A stretch of 64,000 nt of DNA. It comes from Chitinophagaceae bacterium (GTDB taxonomy: Bacteria; Bacteroidota; Bacteroidia; Chitinophagales; Chitinophagaceae). The DNA lies in contig JANINS010000004.1 in the NCBI GenBank assembly GCA_024508725.1, positions 700,163-764,162 of the forward strand, written 5' to 3'. Every line of letters begins with the position of its first letter. Position 1 is the stretch's first letter. The position numbers and the translations under genes were made by a program. The notes under the pieces were generated by a model. That model saw only the letters and a program-made list of their open reading frames with translations, was not told the origin of the DNA and made no database searches. Shown here in pieces: positions 15,634-40,978 of the stretch.

Positions 15634-18600
15634 TTATTTATACAGCCAAACTCTCATCAGCGATAACAACTGATCCATTTTCACTGGTTTAGTAATGTAA
15701 TCAGATGCACCTGCTTCGATACATTTTTCCCTGTCACCCTTCATCGCTTTCGCTGTTACGGCAATGATAGGAAGATTACTGTTCTTATGTTCACGTCTGA
15801 TCTTTCCGGTTGTTTCGTAACCATCCATTTCCGGCATCATGATATCCATCAGTACAATGTCGATTCCATCATTTTCCCTTAGGATATTGATCGCTTCCTG
15901 TCCACTTTCTGCTGTGATCGCTTTGATGTTATGACGCTCAAATGCAGTTGTTAATGCAAAGAGATTTCTTACATCATCATCCACTACAAGCACTGTTTTA
16001 TTCGCCAGCACATCTTCTCTTGATCTCAGATCTTCGATCAGTTTTCTCTTCTCCTGCGGAAGATCTTTATGACAAAGGTGCATGTGCAACACTGCTTCTT
16101 CGAGCAAGAGTTCAAGTGAGTTAACACTCTTCAGCAATATCCTGTTTGCATACTGCTTCAGTTGTGTTTTCTCTTTTGGATTGAAATCTTTTGCCGAGTA
16201 GATCAACACAGGTGTCATTGCTAATTTCTTCAGATCGTTGATCTGCGTTAAGAATTCCATTCCACCAATATCAGGTAGCATGTAATCTACGATGATACAA
16301 TCGTAAGAATTCTCTTTTAGTAATTCCAATCCATGCTGACCTGTAGAAGCGATCTGGATATCGATCTGGTCTGGAGCAGCCAGGATCTTTGCCATTTGTG
16401 ATGAATCGAGTTCGTTGTCTTCTACAAGCAACAGCTTCTTAGGTTTGCGGTTGTTGTAGTCAACGATATCATCAAACAGAACAGATAAGGCTTCATTCTT
16501 CAAAGGCTTCAGGTGGAAACTTCTAGCACCACGTTGCATTGCCAGTAACCTGTTCTCTTCACCGGAGATCAGGTGTACAGGAATGTGACGAAGGTTTACA
16601 TCATTTTTGAAGAGATCAAGTATCTTCCAGCCACTGGCATCAGGTAATTTAACGTCTAATGTTACAGCGATCGGACTAAAACGGTTGGTAAGTTCGAATA
16701 CTTCGCCGAAGTGTGTTGCTACCACGATCTTCAGCTCCATTTCATGAGCCTTTTCTACCATGATCTTCGCAAAACGAACATCATCTTCAACTACCAACAC
16801 CACTTTATCGCCACTGTTGATCATGTTTCTGTCGTCACCAACTTCATTAATGATCTCGTTGATGGCATCCAGGTCTCTTTCAGGCAATTTTACTGTTGGT
16901 ACAGATTGAATGGCTGAAGAGTCTGCAGTATCTAACTTATATTCTGTAACGGTTAAGCTGCTTTGCTTTTCTTTCTTAACGTTGTTTGGATTATAGTCGA
17001 TAGGGAGGAAGAGGGTAAACGTACTACCTCTGCCTGGCTCTGAATCAAGTTCGATAGATCCACCCAACAGGTCGGCAAGACCTCTTGAGATCGACAATCC
17101 AAGACCAGTACCACCATATTTTCTCGAAGTAGATCCTTCTGCTTGCTGGAATGCTTCGAAGATGATGTTTTGTTTGTCTTTAGAGATACCGATACCGGTG
17201 TCTTTGATCTCGAATGCAACGACACGGCCTGCATTATCAAGATTAGAATACAATCCTTTCCAGTTCTTGTTAGCCTCGTATATCCTGAGTTTTACTTCAC
17301 CTTTCTCAGTAAACTTGAATGCATTTGAAAGAAGGTTTTTCAGGATCTGGTTCAAACGCTGGATATCTGTTTCCAAACTATCCGGTAGGCTCTTATCCAT
17401 TTCAATGTTGAACTTGAGATTCTTATTTTCAGAAACGTGTTTGAAAGTAGTTTCTACGAAAGAAGTGATCTCGTTGAATCGAACATTGATAAAGTCTGTA
17501 GAGATATAACCAGATTCGATCTTACTTAAGTCGAGAATATCATTGATCAGTTGGATAAGGTCATCACCACAAGAGTGAATGGTTTTCGCATACCTGATCT
17601 GTTTCTCTGTTAAGTTACCTTCGTGGTTCTCATACAACTGCTGCGCAAGAATTAAGAGTGAGTTCAACGGAGTACGCAACTCATGCGACATGTTTGCAAG
17701 GAACTCAGACTTATACTTAGAAGTAAGTTGTAACTGCTCTGCTTTTTCTTCGAGTGAGCGACGAGCTTCTTCCACCTCTTTGTTCTTCGCTTCCACTTCT
17801 TCTTTTTGCTTAACAAGAAGGTGAGCTTTATCCTGTAACTCTTCATTGGTTCTTCTCAACTCATCTGTCAATGACTGAGACTGCTCGAGAAGTTCCTCTG
17901 TTCTTGAGTTGGTTTCGATCGTGTTCAATACGATACCGATAGACTCTGTCAACTGGCTTAAGAAGTCCAAGTGAATATCAGAGAACTGGCCAAACGATGC
18001 AAGTTCAATTACAGCTTTGATATCTGTTTCAAACAACACCGGAAGTACAATTACCGAAACCGGTGCAGCTTCACCCAAACCAGAACCGATCTTGATATAT
18101 TCTTTAGGAACGTTCGTTAATAGAATTCTTTCTTTTTCAACGGCACATTGTCCAACAAGACCCTGACCTAAGGCAAATTCCCTGTTTGCAACCTGCTCTT
18201 CACCATATGCATAAGATGAGAAGAGTTTGAGTTTTTTGTTCTCCAGATTTTCATCCTGCTCAAGAATGTAGAACATACCTTGTTGAGCGTTTACTACCTG
18301 TGCAAGCTCTGAAAGAATACGCCTTGTTACCGTTGAAAGATCTTTCTGACCCTGCAACATCTGCGTGAACTTCGCAAGGTTCGATTTCAACCAGTCCTGC
18401 TCCTGGTTACGGAGTGTTGTTTCTTTCAGGTTAGCGATCATCTGGTTGATGGTATCTTTCAATTCTTCCACCTCACCTTTCGCTTCCACACGGATCATCT
18501 GTGTAAGATCACCTTTTGTTACCGCTGATGCCACTTCAGAGATGGCACGTACCTGTGTAGTAAGGTTCTCTGCCAACTGGTTTACGTTCTCGGTAAGGTT

Positions 18601-21600
18601 TTTCCAGATACCGGATGCACCAGGTACAGAAGCCTGACCACCCAATCTTCCTTCAACACCCACCTCACGAGCCACGGTAGTTACCTGGTCTGCGAAAGTT
18701 GCCAGTGTATCGATCATCTCGTTGATGGTTTCTGTTAACTGTGCAACCTCACCACGAGAAACGATTGAAAGTTTTTGTTTCAGATTACCTGTTGCCACCG
18801 CAGTTACAACTTTTGCGATACCACGTACCTGGTTGGTAAGGTTAGATGCCATCATGTTTACCGAGTCGGTCAAATCTTTCCATGTACCAGCCACACCTTG
18901 TACCTCGGCCTGACCACCAAGCTTACCCTCAGTACCTACCTCTCTCGCCACACGGGTTACCTCGAATGCGAATGAATTCAGCTGATCCACCATCGTGTTG
19001 ATCGTATTCTTCAGGTCAAGGATCTCGCCCTTAACGTCTATCGTTACTTTCTTACTCAAGTCACCCGATGCTACCGCTTTTGTTACTTCGGCGATGTTAC
19101 GTACCTGGGCTGTAAGGTTACCGGTCATCTGGTTTACTGAGTCAGTCAGATCTTTCCACGTACCACCAACACCCGGTACGAAGGCTTGTCCACCCAATTT
19201 ACCATCGGTACCAACCTCTCTGGCTACCCTCGTTACCTCTGATGCAAAGGCACGAAGCTGATCCACCATCGTATTCAGCGTTTCTTTCAGCTGAAGGATC
19301 TCACCACGTACATCCACCGTAATTTTCTTAGACATGTCTCCGTTTGCCACGGCAATCGCAACTTCGGCGATGTTACGTACCTGACCGGTAAGGTTCGATG
19401 CCATCTGGTTTACTGAGTCGGTCAAATCCTTCCATGTACCGGCAACACCTGGTACGTGAGCCTGACCACCCAATTTACCTTCCGTACCTACCTCTCTAGC
19501 TACCCTCGTTACCTCAGAAGCGAAGGCACGAAGCTGATCCACCATCGTGTTGATCGTATTTTTCAACTCAAGGATCTCACCTTTAACGTCCACCTCAATT
19601 TTACGAGACAAGTCACCATTTGCCACGGCTGTTGTTACCTCGGCGATGTTACGTACCTGCCCGGTAAGGTTAGATGCCATTTTATTTACTGAGTCAGTCA
19701 AATCTTTCCAAAGACCTTCTACACCAGGTACATCGGCTTGTCCACCGAGTTTACCTTCAGAACCCACCTCACGAGCCACACGGAATACCTCAGATCCGAA
19801 GGCGTTCAACTGATCCACCATCGTGTTGATCGTATTCTTCAACTCAAGGATCTCACCACGTACATCCACCGTAATTTTTCTTGAAAGATCACCTTTTGCT
19901 ACCGCTGTTGTTACCTCGGCGATATTACGTACCTGGGCTGTAAGGTTAGATGCCATCTGGTTTACTGAGTCGGTCAAATCCTTCCATGTACCACCTACAT
20001 CCTGCACTTTCGCCTGACCACCGAGTTTACCTTCTGTACCTACCTCAAGTGCCACCCTTGTTACCTCTGATGCGAATGAGTTGAGCTGATCCACCATCGT
20101 GTTGATCGTATTCTTCAACTCAAGGATCTCACCCTGTACGTTTACCGTAATTTTCTTCGACAAGTCTCCATTTGCCACAGCCGTAGTCACCTCAGCGATG
20201 TTACGTACCTGGGCTGTAAGGTTACCCGCCATATTATTTACTGAGTCAGTCAAATCTTTCCAAGTACCACCAACTCCCTGCACTTTTGCCTGGCCACCAA
20301 GCTTTCCTTCAGTACCTACCTCAAGAGCCACACGGGTTACCTCGGAAGCGAAGGAGTTCAGCTGATCCACCATTCGGTTGATCACATCTTTGATCTGGAG
20401 GATCTCACCTCTTACATCCACCGTGATCTTCTGGGTTAAGTCACCATTCGCAATCGCTGTCGCAACTTTCGATACGTCACGAAGCTGAACGGTAAGGTTA
20501 CCTGCAAGAAGGTTTACGTTGTCTGTCAAATCTTTCCATACACCACCAACTCCTTTTACCGTAGCCTGACCACCAAGTTTACCTTCAGAACCCACCTCAC
20601 GAGCCACACGGCTCACCTCGGAAGAGAAGGAGTTAAGCTGATCCACCATCGTATTGATCGTGTTCTTCAATTCAAGGATCTCACCTTTTACGTCCACCGT
20701 GATCTTTCTACTCAAATCACCTCTCGCTACCGCTGTTGTTACCTCGGCGATGTTACGTACCTGTCCCGTAAGGTTAGATGCCATCTGGTTTACAGAGTCA
20801 GTCAAATCTTTCCAAGTACCGGCAACACCAGGTACTTCGGCTTGTCCACCCAGTTTACCTTCGGTACCCACCTCACGAGCCACACGGGTTACCTCTGATG
20901 AGAAGGAGTTGAGCTGATCCACCATCGTATTGATCGTGTTTTTCAACTCAAGAATTTCTCCCTGTACATCCACAGTGATCTTCTTAGATAGGTTTCCATT
21001 AGCAACGGCTGTTGTTACCTCGGCGATGTTACGTACCTGGGCAGTAAGATTACCTGCCATCTGGTTTACCGAGTCAGTCAGATCTTTCCATACACCGGCA
21101 ACACCTTTTACACGAGCCTGACCACCCAATTTACCTTCAGAACCCACCTCACGGGCCACACGGGTCACCTCCATAGAGAAGAGGTTCAACTGCTTCACCA
21201 TGTCGTTTACCTCACGGGCAATACGCTGGAACTCACCTTGCAAAACGTGATCTCCAATTTGTAGTGGCATCTCCTGGCTAAGATTTCCTTTCGCCACAGA
21301 ACCAATTACGTGTGCTATTTCAATAGTAGGGTGTACCAGATCTGATATCAATCCATTTATCGCATCAACACCTGAACTCCAGGCACCACGGGCATGACGT
21401 GGAAGTTCTATACGGTGTGTCAGATTTCCTTTTTTACCGATCGTTTGTCCTGCACGGGTCAACTCCGTCATCAGGATCTCGTTCATGGTAATGATTTCGT
21501 TAAGGGTATCGCAGATTTTGCCTTCAAAACCAACCTGGTCAATGGGCATCCGGACAGCGAAATTTCCATTTTTTACTTCTGAAAGAACTCTTAACAGCTC

Positions 21601-21774
21601 CTTCATATCTAAAGTAGTGTCACCATTCCTGCTGGTAGGTGAGAAGGTTTCCCCATTTTGGGGAAAATCTGGGATAGTTTGTTCCATTGGTGCTAAGGAT
21701 TTTGCTATTTCTGGTGAAATAGGTAATGGCGCTGGTTTCACAGTTCCATTGGATTTACCACGTTTTGTAGCCAT
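15634..21774 (-). CDS. giant soluble poly-HAMP hybrid histidine kinase with three receiver domains
   Basis: A 2046-residue protein without membrane segments. After ~200 residues of divergent HAMP-like sequence come ten consecutive ~92-residue units (residues ~213-1090), each with [10 protein letters not shown], [17 protein letters not shown] and [16 protein letters not shown]; each unit corresponds to a HAMP domain plus a HAMP-like linker. Then a GAF domain (~1140-1280), a coiled coil, HisKA (His1364 in [14 protein letters not shown]), HATPase ([20 protein letters not shown]) and three REC domains with acceptors Asp1707, Asp1830 and Asp1977. The plan matches fungal group III osmosensing kinases (Nik1/Os-1), which have about five such units and one REC. 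It probably senses an intracellular or osmotic state by HAMP conversion. It heads an operon with the REC-kinase and is divergent from a lone response regulator. Confidence 0.95.
18400..21150 (-). repeat. ~276-bp tandem DNA repeat (x10) encoding HAMP units
   Basis: The poly-HAMP part of the kinase gene is a tandem repeat at the DNA level. The string GATCTTTCCAnGTACC or a close variant (TGGAAAGAT on this strand) and ATCCACCATCGT recur about every 276 bp from ~18600 to ~21130. Ten units can be counted, spaced 92 codons apart with no out-of-frame length change. Inner units are more alike than the last two toward the 3' end, as expected from recombinational expansion in the middle of the array. 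Confidence 0.9.
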
Positions 21775-35109: not shown

Positions 35110-35325
35110 AACGTTCATTTTATTGAATTAGTTATCCCGGTATTTATCGAAAGATGGCTTTATCATAAACAGCGATCGTACAGGTTGTTTGCATTTCAAT
35201 ACTTAAATATCTTACAACCGGCCCAGATGCTTCGACACCTTCAAACGCTGGTTGAAGATCAGCGTTAGCCAGCCTTTCCCAGGCTCAAGCCGAGCTGTTG
35301 CCGGGTGTAGTTTTTCCTTTAACAT

Positions 35326-35576
35326 CTATAGTTGACCTTTTGTAACCCATAGTTGACTTTTCGTGACCTATAGTTAATCATTCGTAACCTCCAGTTTTGC
35401 CAAATTGACTTGCGAAAACCCAGCTATAGCTCACGACAACTCAACTATAGATGGAAAAATGTCGGCTTGTCATGGAAAATGTTCAACTATAGCTTACGAC
35501 AACACAACTAGAGCCTGCACCGCTTCAACTACAGGTCACAGAAACTTAACTATAGCCGGAAAAATCCCTTCTCAAG
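35326..35576. repeat. inverted array of 21-bp repeats (about 12 units, two orientations)
   Basis: In the 552-bp gap before the duplicated helical protein gene, three to four units in one direction (35326, 35347, 35368, 35389; each starting with CTATAGTTGA or a variant and ending CGTAAC/CGTGAC) meet eight units in the opposite direction (35409, 35430, 35451, 35472, 35493, 35514, 35535, 35556; each ending CAACTATAG or a variant). Units are exactly 21 bp long with no spacers and differ from one another at many positions. Period 21 is two DNA helical turns and also seven codons. The left half has stops in every plus frame, so the array as a whole is not coding on that strand. The rest of the gap (35110-35325) shows no feature I can name. 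Confidence 0.85.
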
Positions 35577-35661
35577 GCTTGCAAAACTCAAACAGGCGTT
35601 TTATCTTACTAACCAGAACATACGAATACCTACAGTATTTTATCACCCCTAAATAAATCGT

Positions 35662-36354
35662 ATGGCACAACAACCTAAACGCCAGTACAATTTCAGCGAC
35701 GGCACGCTACGTCAATTTGCCGATCAGCTTAAGATCAATGTTACAAGAGATGCAGCAGATTTTACTCCCCGAGGTATTACTGCTACCAGCCTCACCAGCC
35801 TGCAAACCCTCATCGATGGTTTTGATGGCATCACGACCGATGAAGAATTGCTGGGTCGTGTAACAACAGCTACCGAACAGAAAGAAGCCGCAAGAGAAAC
35901 ACTCGTCAGGCAACTCCGTGCCATTCGTGGTATTGCCGATGTTGCTTACAACGGCAAAGGCATGTACAAAAGTTTTGGCTTTGAAGACATGACTAAAGCC
36001 AATGATGCTGATCTCTACCGTATGGCTGTTCGTGTACACCGTGTAGCTACAGAAGAACTTACTGTGTTAACTCCTCACGGGCTTACCACAGCAATGCTCA
36101 CTGATCTGCAGTCTGCCTGTACAGACTTTGATCAGAAGTTAGACAAACAGGTTACTGCAATGAACAATCGTGACATTGCAAAGCAGGAACGTATTGCTGC
36201 AGGCAACAACCTGTTTACCGAAGTGAGTCGCATTATTAAAATAGGTAAAGCCATTTACCAGGCTAATGATGCTGCCCGATACAATGATTATATTCTGCCT
36301 GCTGCAACGATTGGCGGTGGAGTAGAAGAGAAGCCGGAAGAACCGGCGAGTTAA
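35662..36354 (+). CDS. unrecognised helical protein with internal duplication
   Basis: I do not recognise this 230-residue cytoplasmic protein. It consists of two related ~85-residue halves: FTPRGITATSLTSLQTLIDGF (~35-55) aligns with LTPHGLTTAMLTDLQSACTDF (~137-157), and IRGIADVAYNGKGMYKSFG with VSRIIKIGKAIYQANDAAR. Each half is predicted to be mostly helical with a charged middle helix (EQKEAARETLVRQLRAI / NRDIAKQERIAAGNNLFTEV). The tail is Pro/Glu-rich. It has no signal peptide or membrane segment. The start codon lies 86 bp after the 21-bp repeat array, and a strong terminator follows the stop, so it is a single-gene unit. The role is unknown; a link to the array is only positional. Confidence 0.8.
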   Translation: MAQQPKRQYNFSDGTLRQFADQLKINVTRDAADFTPRGITATSLTSLQTLIDGFDGITTDEELLGRVTTATEQKEAARETLVRQLRAIRGIADVAYNGKGMYKSFGFEDMTKANDADLYRMAVRVHRVATEELTVLTPHGLTTAMLTDLQSACTDFDQKLDKQVTAMNNRDIAKQERIAAGNNLFTEVSRIIKIGKAIYQANDAARYNDYILPAATIGGGVEEKPEEPAS

Positions 36355-36384
36355 ATTGTTTTCTTGTTATGCATTCTTCCCCTG

Positions 36385-36411
36385 GCCCTGTCTGTTTAGA
36401 TGGGGCTTTTT
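36385..36411 (+). terminator. Rho-independent terminator after the duplicated helical gene
   Basis: Nine-base-pair stem GCCCTGTCT/AGATGGGGC (two G-T wobbles) with a GTTT loop, followed by TTTTT. It begins 31 bp after the stop codon. The remaining gap to 36577 holds only a weak -7-like TACTTTTA at 36564. Confidence 0.8.
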
Positions 36412-38038: not shown

Positions 38039-40978
38039 ATGAAACAGATACTACTAACTGCACTTACAGGTCTGCTGGTCTTTGCAAGTATTGCTCAGCA
38101 CAAGAATGCTGATACCTGGAGAGACAGCGCTAATTACTGGGTAAAGCAAAAAGAATTTCTTAAAGCCATGCCTTATCTTGACTCACTGGCGGCTGACGAT
38201 CCTGATGATATACAGTTATTCAACGTTATACAGTATGTAAGAAGTGAGTTAAAACAATATGATAAAGCTTTAGAAGCTTCTCAACAGCTGATAAGGCTTG
38301 AACCAAAGGAAGCAGGACATTATTCTAATGCAGGGTGGTATGCACTGCTTACAAGATCTGACTCGAAAGCCAAATATTACCTGCTAAAAGCGATCAGTTT
38401 AAATCCGAATAGCTATTCAGCTTATCTCAACCTGGGTCATGTATATGCATACCAGCAGGTGTTTGATAAGATGTTTTATTATTACCAGTATGCAGTTGAG
38501 TATTTCCCTAATAAAGAAAAAGTTGAATCAGCAGCGATTGCCGATCTGAGGTTGTTGAAGCAAATGAAACTGATCGCATTCGATACTACGGAGATTATGG
38601 ATGAAATGCGGACTGTTGCTGCGGAATACGATGATAATACTGCAGCCACTGAAATACTGGATTCGATCTACAGATCTGTAACCTGGTATAACCAACATCC
38701 TTACAGCAAAGAGATCATTGATCTGAAAAGAGAGTTCTGTCGATTAGAAACAAAAAATAAAATATCCCGTTATCATGTATTAAGTGATTTCTATTATGAT
38801 ATTGGAGTGTATGAAGTGGATCAGCGAAATCAGCTCAAAGGCTTTCGGGACTACATTGTTACATCTTTTAAATATGCATTTGCAACCAATGATACAGTTT
38901 CTTTATTGAAGAAATGGGTTGAGTTTGGTCAATATGGAGCAGATCCATTCGATCAATTATTAGACAGTGCTATTGATTTGGCAAAAGCCTCACACGAACG
39001 TGTGTGGTTACTAAAAAGCTATTGGGCCAAAGCTGATGTATTTAAGTCACGTTATAAATGGGATAGTGTTCTTTATTATGCCGGGCTTGCCTATGATCTG
39101 GCCAATCAACTGACTTATAGTGAAGCCGACGAGTTTGAACACAATAAAGAATATGCAATAGCTGCCTGTGCCGAAAAGTTATATGATGCTTACCTCGTAA
39201 AGCGAAAATGTGACTCTGCGTTTCACTTCTTCGATATCAGCAGCAGTTTTTTTCTTAAATATCATCCCGGTATTGATAATGAATTTGAAACAGCACACAA
39301 TAAAGCTGTTGGATTATATAAGTGTGGTAATTATGACGAAAGTATAAAAGTCGCCATCAAAGCATACGAAGACAACAAGTCATACAGGAGACAAATCAAC
39401 TTTTATGATCTGCTTGAGTTGATTGGAATTAATTATTATTCGCAGCGGAAGTTTTCAGAGGCAGAAAAATACTTTCGTCTGGCTATTGAAACCTATAAAC
39501 GATTTACTGAAGAAGCTGAGAATAAAAAAGGATTGATGGTATTGAATGCGAAATGTGAAGATGCTTTTGAATACCTGAAAAAGATCGGTGTAAACAAAGG
39601 TGATGCAGAAATTTTGTTTTCGCTTACTGAAGAAGCGAAGCTAAGTATCATGTATCATACAATAGGGAATACGTATTACCCTAAGGGGATAAAAACCTTG
39701 GCCGATGTTCGAAAATCATTGACAGCCGAGGAGGCAGTATTGTCTTACAGCACCTCCGGAAGAATGAGTTGGGGATATGGAATTGGTTTCGATATTAATA
39801 ATACACTTGTCCTTAAAGAAGATATTCAGCAATTCAATTCCCTGTTAAATGATACACGCCTGTCAGCATTTAGAGATAAACTCAATAAAATGGCTGATGC
39901 GGTTATAAAGAATACAGGCAATACTAAAAAAATTGATGAAGATGTCGCTACTGCTAAGATGGGATTGTTATCACTTATATTCAACATGAATACAGGTGGT
40001 TCCAGGTTTACACGAGGGTTCACAGTGAAAGTTAAGAATAATGACATCTCTGCAGCCGAGGCCGAGCTAAATGCAATGAATGATCTGCTATATTCTTTTT
40101 TTGTTGCTCCATTTGAAACATTATTGGCAGGCAAAAAGACAATTTATATTTCTGCAGAGCAGGCAACTAATTTCTTTCCTTTTGAAATACTGAAGAATAA
40201 ACAAGGCAAATACCTGGGAGAATTGTACAATATTGTTTATGTACCGTCTTTCACTATAAAACATCTGATACAACAAAGAGTAGAATCAGACTCGGTAAAA
40301 AAGAACTTGCTTGCTTTTGGCAATCCGGTATATAACAGTTTCGATGTTAAAGAAATGAATGGCAGGGCTTACGATATGACTGCTTTTGGTTTTGATAGCT
40401 GGAGTGATCTGCCAGGAACTGAGGCTGAGCTGCAAAGTTTGCAACAGGTAAATGCTTCTGCCGAAGTTATACAGGGAAATAAAGTGACAGAATCAGCGAT
40501 CAAACAATTAAGTGAAAAAGGGAAACTGAAAGAATATCAATACCTGCATTTTGCTACACATGGTATGAGTAAGATCGATAATTATGAAGATAATGCGCTG
40601 ATCTTAACTGAACCGGTCGGAGGCAGGAATGATGGATTTCTTCAGTTCTGGGAAATAGCAAACCTTGATGTTGATGCGAGGCTCGTTTGTCTTTCTGCCT
40701 GCGAAACGGCAATGAGTGGTTTTGTAAAAAACAACGAACTGAATTTACCGCTGGCTTTTATCATGGCTGGTGCAAGATCGGTTATTGCTTCTTCATGGAA
40801 GATCGATGATAAGGCTACAGGAATTTTTATGTCTTCGTTATACAGAAAGATTTTTGATGAAAAGAAAACACCATCAGAAGCTTTGTCGCTAACCCGGAAA
40901 GAATTTATCACAGGAGTTTATGGAAACCAATATAAAGCACCAATGTATTGGGGAGCTTTCAAGTATATAGGCTACTAA
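38039..40978 (+). CDS. exported TPR-CHAT protein (caspase-like domain)
   Basis: A 979-residue protein with a signal peptide (MKQILLTALTGLLVFASIAQ), a long TPR region (~25-500; for example YSNAGWYALLTRSDSKAKYYLLKAI, YSAYLNLGHVYAYQQVFDKM, NYYSQRKFSEAEKYFRLAIE) and a C-terminal CHAT domain (~640-979). The caspase-type dyad is complete: His841 in YLHFATHGMS and Cys888 in LVCLSACETAMSG. AFIMAGARSVIASSWKIDD and SLYRKIFDEKKTPSEAL complete the domain. CHAT domains are clan CD proteases; TPR-CHAT proteins are known as effectors in type III-E CRISPR and other immune settings, but those are cytoplasmic. The signal peptide here predicts a periplasmic or surface location, so an ordinary envelope function is just as possible. 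Its last 4 bp overlap the stop of dapF. Confidence 0.9.
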   Translation: MKQILLTALTGLLVFASIAQHKNADTWRDSANYWVKQKEFLKAMPYLDSLAADDPDDIQLFNVIQYVRSELKQYDKALEASQQLIRLEPKEAGHYSNAGWYALLTRSDSKAKYYLLKAISLNPNSYSAYLNLGHVYAYQQVFDKMFYYYQYAVEYFPNKEKVESAAIADLRLLKQMKLIAFDTTEIMDEMRTVAAEYDDNTAATEILDSIYRSVTWYNQHPYSKEIIDLKREFCRLETKNKISRYHVLSDFYYDIGVYEVDQRNQLKGFRDYIVTSFKYAFATNDTVSLLKKWVEFGQYGADPFDQLLDSAIDLAKASHERVWLLKSYWAKADVFKSRYKWDSVLYYAGLAYDLANQLTYSEADEFEHNKEYAIAACAEKLYDAYLVKRKCDSAFHFFDISSSFFLKYHPGIDNEFETAHNKAVGLYKCGNYDESIKVAIKAYEDNKSYRRQINFYDLLELIGINYYSQRKFSEAEKYFRLAIETYKRFTEEAENKKGLMVLNAKCEDAFEYLKKIGVNKGDAEILFSLTEEAKLSIMYHTIGNTYYPKGIKTLADVRKSLTAEEAVLSYSTSGRMSWGYGIGFDINNTLVLKEDIQQFNSLLNDTRLSAFRDKLNKMADAVIKNTGNTKKIDEDVATAKMGLLSLIFNMNTGGSRFTRGFTVKVKNNDISAAEAELNAMNDLLYSFFVAPFETLLAGKKTIYISAEQATNFFPFEILKNKQGKYLGELYNIVYVPSFTIKHLIQQRVESDSVKKNLLAFGNPVYNSFDVKEMNGRAYDMTAFGFDSWSDLPGTEAELQSLQQVNASAEVIQGNKVTESAIKQLSEKGKLKEYQYLHFATHGMSKIDNYEDNALILTEPVGGRNDGFLQFWEIANLDVDARLVCLSACETAMSGFVKNNELNLPLAFIMAGARSVIASSWKIDDKATGIFMSSLYRKIFDEKKTPSEALSLTRKEFITGVYGNQYKAPMYWGAFKYIGY

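Follow-up and report, generated by a model that had tools for sequence, protein, structure and literature searches.

The array and its downstream gene

The window, that is, the whole analyzed stretch of 64,000 nucleotides, lies in a 1.39-Mb contig of a Chitinophagaceae bacterium and contains a gene for a 230-aa protein (35662..36354, + strand) preceded by an array of short repeats at 35326-35577. As the sequence-only reading had described, this array consists of 12 directly abutting 21-bp units, four in one direction and eight in the other, and each step between units is 21 bp. The left half (35326..35409, + strand) comprises four units of the CTATAGTTGACCTTTCGTAAC type, starting at 35326, 35347, 35368 and 35389, the fourth of which is degenerate; a possible extra unit, weak or degenerate and beginning GTGTAGTT, adjoins it on the left (35305..35325, + strand). 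The right half (35410..35577, – strand) comprises eight opposed units, with CTATAG-like cores at 35424, 35445, 35487, 35508, 35529 and 35550 and degenerate in-register units at 35466 and 35571. Altogether, three of the 12 units are degenerate and nine contain a CTATAG-like core. The halves are inverted copies of each other (46-nt arms at 35318-35363 and 35413-35458, 74% complementary), and by arithmetic on the CTATAG centers the orientation flip is out of helical phase (98 bp, or 9.33 turns).

Autocorrelation confirmed the array and its period. Over the whole array, lag-21 identity was 0.52 (0.625 in the left part and 0.507 in the right part), and lag-42 identity was 0.47. In the best 250 nt of the array the lag-21 identity reached 0.53, 7 sd above what 250-nt segments average across the window (0.284, sd 0.034). 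When such segments of the window were ranked by periodicity (periods 10-60), the top 20 all fell within the array. TRF found 3.1 units, in the left half only. In CRISPR loci the repeats are split by unique spacers, whereas here degenerate units abut without any, and the array is accordingly not a CRISPR.

The array had also been placed just upstream of a single unrecognized gene, and the 230-aa protein indeed had no match in Pfam. PHROGs gave nothing for it under an E-value of 0.1, and it had no match in PADLOC-DB either, where two of four other proteins gave weak matches only (E = 0.046 and 0.0072). The NCBIfam model NF052641 (‘PQLLE family protein’) scored 27.3 bits against it and thus did not reach the curated cut-off of 80. 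At E ≤ 1, the window protein and six of eight other scanned homologues (L012, L013, L014, L015, L011 and L084) matched this model weakly or better. The cut-off was passed by four loci in three genomes (G382, G407 and G562); each of the four is preceded by an array, although for L069 this depends on the chosen start codon. The name ‘PQLLE family’ was absent from the literature searched, which mostly excludes subscription journals.

The protein is predicted, with low confidence, to be all-helical. A structure model from two sequences was all-helical with a pLDDT of 52, and a PDB fold search with it returned generic helical bundles, which may mean nothing for such a model; the best match by sequence to solved structures (E = 0.05) was not convincing. 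A scan of nine proteins revealed no convincing DNA-binding domain. Of 57 homologues, 36 have an acidic product, with a pI below 7 (overall range 4.5-10.0; 5.4 for the window protein). The C-terminus varies among homologues, and that of L012 carries a carboxypeptidase-regulatory-like domain. A viral or plasmid origin found no support: viral contigs contained no relative of the window protein, of L010, of L094 or of the Lewinella protein, and plasmids and phages contained none of the window protein.

Downstream of the gene lies a terminator-like hairpin with a T tail (36384..36407, + strand), a consensus match only; two were found where shuffles give 1.2. Neighboring genes in the window include those for AHSA1, GAF and CHAT proteins, and the third gene downstream encodes a 979-aa TPR-CHAT protein (38039-40978, + strand). 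Further away, a 2046-aa hybrid histidine kinase (15634-21774, – strand) contains 10-11 HAMP stretches, and its gene includes 276-bp DNA repeats (18823-21171, 8.5 copies).

Arrays upstream of homologous genes

The sequence-only reading had proposed a search for such arrays before homologues of the 230-residue protein, and we searched for homologues on protein sequence only. A protein search of 59 genomes yielded eight places in four genomes, most of which were preceded by a 21-bp period with other letters. A profile built on these eight gave 42 places, spread over 14 of the 147 genomes searched in the taxonomic family; the NF052641 search gave 27 places across 11 of 296 genomes of the phylum, mostly outside the class of the source genome. 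We entered 59 loci: L011, L012, L067, 30 of the 42 profile places and 26 of the 27 NF052641 places. The 12 profile places left out were mostly weak or later matches of the same genomes, and L074 was left out as the window gene again; L064 and L072 had too short an upstream stretch, which left 57 evaluable homologues. An array was counted when a 126-nt segment no more than 700 nt upstream reached a lag-21 or lag-42 identity of 0.5 or higher. Because the start codon was taken as the furthest in-frame ATG, some upstream stretches are displaced.

By this definition, an upstream array was present in 46 of the 57 homologues, whereas 1477 control genes from stretches of 20 genomes included 29 with one (Fisher's exact test, P = 2e-57), and 21 of 27 genomes had at least one array-preceded homologue. 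When the comparison was restricted to the same 13 genomes and to controls with an upstream gap of at least 250 nt, the difference persisted (25/30 versus 23/475, P = 3e-24). Thresholds of 0.45, 0.55 and 0.6 gave 47, 39 and 31 positive homologues out of 57. Among periods of 10-60, the top period of the 46 positives was 21 in 28 cases and 42 in 18. These positives include L075 and L083, although the strong 42-bp array of L075 looks like a different repeat. In the window itself, only one of 38 gene upstreams passed the 0.5 threshold, namely that of the 230-aa gene, and of 76 tiles taken elsewhere in genomes of the taxonomic family a single one passed (lag 21 only).

The 11 homologues lacking an upstream array were L011, L041, L047, L048, L061, L067, L073 (0.49), L085, L086, L092 and L093. 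In L041 and L092 an array lies downstream instead. L011 and L067 (the latter from Lewinella sp. IMCC34191), both without an upstream array, encode proteins that are 60% identical. The proteins of L093 and L094 are 96% identical; only L094 has the array, and the DNA similarity ends at the gene. A fixed distance between array and start codon was rejected, since it varied widely under a stricter definition of the array edge. The source genome has a second member of the gene family (L054, at G000:C4 1373832-1374506), which has a 21-bp array of unrelated letters; the next gene looks, by eye, like one for an ATP-binding protein.

The motif itself was not shared. The sequence-only reading had suggested looking for arrays of the same 9-mer in relatives, but pairs of CTATAGTT at 21-bp spacing (at most one mismatch), found in 55 of 294 genomes of the taxonomic family, were rarer overall than a reversed control pattern, and a family defined by this motif was rejected. 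In the source genome, such pairs occurred at five places versus one for the control. One candidate relative, L021 (G219), proved to be a separate 21-bp array with a chance match. Close paralogues apart, the upstream regions of homologues showed short matches only. On this sequence comparison, the CTATAG motif appears to be private to the window locus, and relatives have the period and the gene in common with it but a different sequence. These results suggest that a two-turn DNA spacing, and not a sequence, is what is kept.

To describe arrays elsewhere, we sampled stretches that were partly chosen on contigs with gene-family members, so the densities given here are not those of a random sample. 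In the 858,606 bases sampled from the source genome (22% of it, picked so that both family members were covered), the periodicity threshold was passed by ten stretches, and only two of the non-coding ones had a period of 21 or 42, each before a family member. On contigs picked for holding family members, G071 had 11 distinct arrays in 120 kb, three of which precede family members, and G021 had seven in 175 kb. Six other family-positive genomes (G002, G025, G032, G106, G134 and G148) had none or one per 20-60 kb sample, G093 had one in 440 kb, and seven genomes with no family match yielded one weak array in 400 kb. Our impression is that array density tracks the number of gene-family copies per genome. 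Positions in G093, G068, G071 and G021 (26 rows, representing 25 arrays) were tandem-intergenic in 13 cases, divergent in six, convergent in three, coding in two and at an edge in two. As arrays adjoin other genes in array-rich genomes, the linkage is strong from gene to array but is not exclusive from array to gene.

Such arrays could be a by-product of a minisatellite- or MITE-like process, in which duplication in 21-bp steps seeds intergenic arrays and the gene family travels along with a functionless array. This would account for how often they adjoin other genes in G021 and G071, for L052 and L059, where array and gene are common as a copy of about 1.2 kb and were thus duplicated as one piece, and for the paralogues L075 and L083, which differ in the number and place of the repeats. 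However, the gene linkage extends beyond the class of the source genome, upstream regions have little in common outside close paralogues, and register and helical conservation are held through heavy divergence, as described below. We consider this explanation rather improbable. Two details of these loci are worth recording. In L052, a short dispersed repeat with 45 matches in G093 flanks the duplicated piece on both sides (1022-1131 and 2248-2347); in G420, the paralogues L075 and L083 (87% identical) have the same 42-bp repeat, which precedes one gene in 7.6 copies and follows the other in 2.9.

Spacing and conservation within the arrays

We compared 67 distinct arrays, comprising the 46 upstream arrays and 21 others, in which the window locus was represented by 188 nt (its left half plus the first part of the right one). 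Lag-21 identity was 0.543 for upstream arrays and 0.515 for the others. At lag 168, identity was still 0.446 and 0.404, respectively, and it fell to 0.255-0.288 when the lag was one to three bases off. At a distance of three units, 60 of 67 arrays had zero as their best offset; at five units 51 of 61 did, and at seven 43 of 54. Thus, neighboring units match at only about 54% of positions, yet register holds over eight units; the sequence has drifted far and the spacing has been kept. TRF with lenient penalties reported a mean of 3% indels and none in 28 of 64 arrays (a set still including two repeated arrays), and selection by fixed-lag identity disfavors arrays with indels, so we describe the spacing as near-strict, not absolute.

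Conservation over the 21 columns of the unit was strongest at two cycles per unit, which corresponds to 10.5 bp. This harmonic accounted for a share of 0.192 of the conservation power, compared with an expected 0.1 (P = 5e-6), and exceeded its two neighbors (P = 4e-4); with close paralogues removed (63 arrays) the share was 0.191 (P = 0.001). Base composition had no such signal, the share for A/T being 0.136 (P = 0.16).

The period of 21 also equals seven codons, and several arrays have one open frame, as an active or relict coding sequence with seven-residue repeats would. However, the 3-bp harmonic was not raised in the 67 arrays (share 0.080), and the open frame varies in strand and phase. 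Coding heptads were accordingly rejected, and we regard this origin as highly improbable.

Dyad symmetry exceeded a z-score of 2 in 18 of the 67 arrays (P = 0.002 against column-permuted controls). In L091 this arises from a flip in the middle of the array, like that of the window, and in others from a near-palindromic unit. The sequence-only reading had emphasized an inverted architecture; this is true of the array in the window, whose halves are inverted, but flips were seen in only two other loci, L055 (a 66-nt inverted self-match of 80%) and L091. By a generic inversion score, computed on the set that still included two repeated arrays, neither L055 nor the window stretch stood out.

These dyads could be hairpins of a transcribed array, the repeats of which would bind the neighboring protein, either in the manner of a type III toxin-antitoxin system or as an RNA sponge. 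The toxins of type III systems are of the ToxN/CptN/TenpN kind. The array stands directly before a single gene, and as RNA the window array folds better than shuffles (z = –3.97), which is expected because its halves are inverted. However, no toxin of this kind was matched by Pfam in nine proteins, PADLOC-DB was blank for the window protein and weak for two of four others, and Rfam gave no match. Moreover, flips within arrays would reverse the RNA, and 10.5 bp is a number that belongs to DNA. We consider a putative repeat RNA improbable.

A structural element that is blind to sequence is another explanation: the array would curve or wrap DNA by phase alone, for nucleoid architecture or promoter bending, with no need for a specific binder. 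Arrays of differing sequence and identical period, and their occurrence next to other genes in array-rich genomes, would be compatible with this. Curvature in a wedge model was above that of phase-broken copies (P = 2e-10; 69 arrays, two of which were repeats of others). Compared with column-permuted arrays of the same 21-bp period, however, the excess was marginal (P = 0.03). In addition, a period of 10/11 or 31/32 bp should serve equally well, yet only isolated examples turned up, with one 11-bp array apiece in G016, G069 and G127 and one 32-bp array in G068, and a recognizable core is kept in many loci. On balance, a purely structural role seems unlikely.

A proposed DNA platform and its relation to known repeats

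We propose that the array is a helically phased, one-faced and orientation-tolerant DNA platform for a putative protein assembly, which would probably control the downstream gene; we assign this reading a probability of about 0.45. With a repeat of two turns, a site would recur about ten times on the same face of the helix, and if the unit is intrinsically bent, its bends would sum along the array. A protein assembly could dock along that face; it would require the spacing, together with a core specific to each locus, and would tolerate either orientation. The two-turn spacing, the contacts implied at every turn, the freedom of the letters, the tolerance of orientation and the lack of a codon signal all fit a protein-DNA assembly on one face, and a location in front of a single gene would suit regulation, most likely as an operator or activator array for that gene. 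The dyad symmetry, the modeled curvature above phase-broken copies, the orientation flips and the joint duplication of array and gene in L052 and L059 also speak for it. Of the roles that the sequence-only reading had listed, a multi-site binding platform is the one best supported by the comparative data, and the check for arrays before homologues that it had proposed gave a positive answer, but its CTATAG motif is private to the locus. No hint of a recombination focus emerged from these comparisons. By eye, the array consensus differs from locus to locus within one genome, and a single sequence-specific binder would therefore not explain the arrays; the binder might be the gene product or a shared DNA-binding protein. 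Against the platform stand the acidic product with no convincing DNA-binding domain, the variable distance between array and start, the 11 of 57 homologues without an upstream array (one of them from a 96%-identical pair), the arrays beside other genes, and the indels that TRF reports in some arrays of a set selected by fixed-lag identity.

A more speculative extension, which we think unlikely, is that array and helical protein form a cognate two-part module across the phylum, in which each protein or a paralogue-specific partner reads the core of its own locus and the two-turn, one-face layout is common to all. If so, a genome could hold many mutually insulated copies, addressed through a fixed geometry with freely diversifying letters.

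Iterons of plasmids are direct repeats, each spanning roughly two turns, that lie immediately ahead of a gene. The array has this spacing and position, and iterons had been put forward for it, but in the strict sense they are not supported: neither Pfam nor NCBIfam gave a match to a Rep initiator in the adjacent gene, the contig is 1.39 Mb long, and loci are unrelated in sequence and number several per genome in some relatives.

The closest known elements are the repeats described by Subirana and Messeguer (PMC8161180, 2021; earlier survey, PMC6749651). In the passages considered here, these repeats keep a unit length of 20-21 nt while their sequence varies; the passages concern Bacillus, with mention of Cyanobacteria and Actinobacteria, and link no gene family to the repeats. 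They are mostly non-coding, with no sequence common to families and a short core kept, and the arrays studied here likewise have a fixed 20-21-nt unit, unconserved sequence between arrays and a short core within them. The authors also remark on the two helical turns and suggest a protein that requires constant spacing, the function of their repeats being unknown. By comparison with those passages, the present arrays differ in that they occur in Bacteroidota, are more degenerate, are sometimes inverted, and are linked to a helical protein family. The gene linkage and the helical-face signature are thus what is added here. Among titles and abstracts on 21-bp intergenic arrays, we found none tied to a gene family; this search mostly excluded subscription journals and does not imply absence from print. 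Constant-size, free-sequence tandem repeats of bacteria have so far been described with no known function or partner, and a gene family that accompanies them beyond one class, together with helical-face conservation, makes this open puzzle testable.

Other intergenic arrays include the TAACTGA repeats (PMC4679880) and BrickBuilt, a minisatellite/MITE of Porphyromonas gingivalis (PMC4596501). BrickBuilt elements, which may be functionless by-products of the kind considered above, also consist of short spacerless tandem units and are always intergenic, and their segments have promoter activity in both directions. Unlike the present arrays, they have 23-nt units of one repeated sequence. They are flanked by a leader and tail with inverted ends, and their abstract mentions no linked gene family. 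A single unit sequence in all copies was not found here, as the letters differ by locus.

Two arrays adjoin genes whose proteins have no detectable homology to the 230-aa family. The one array from the seven family-negative genomes (L179 17966-18123, in G137) has palindromic units, lies about 400 nt before the gene for a 207-aa protein and may be a REP-like cluster. The 21-bp array at L021 (1366-1700, in G219) lies upstream of a gene for a protein with a weak Fn3 match, and other protein families may share the array-gene arrangement in this way.
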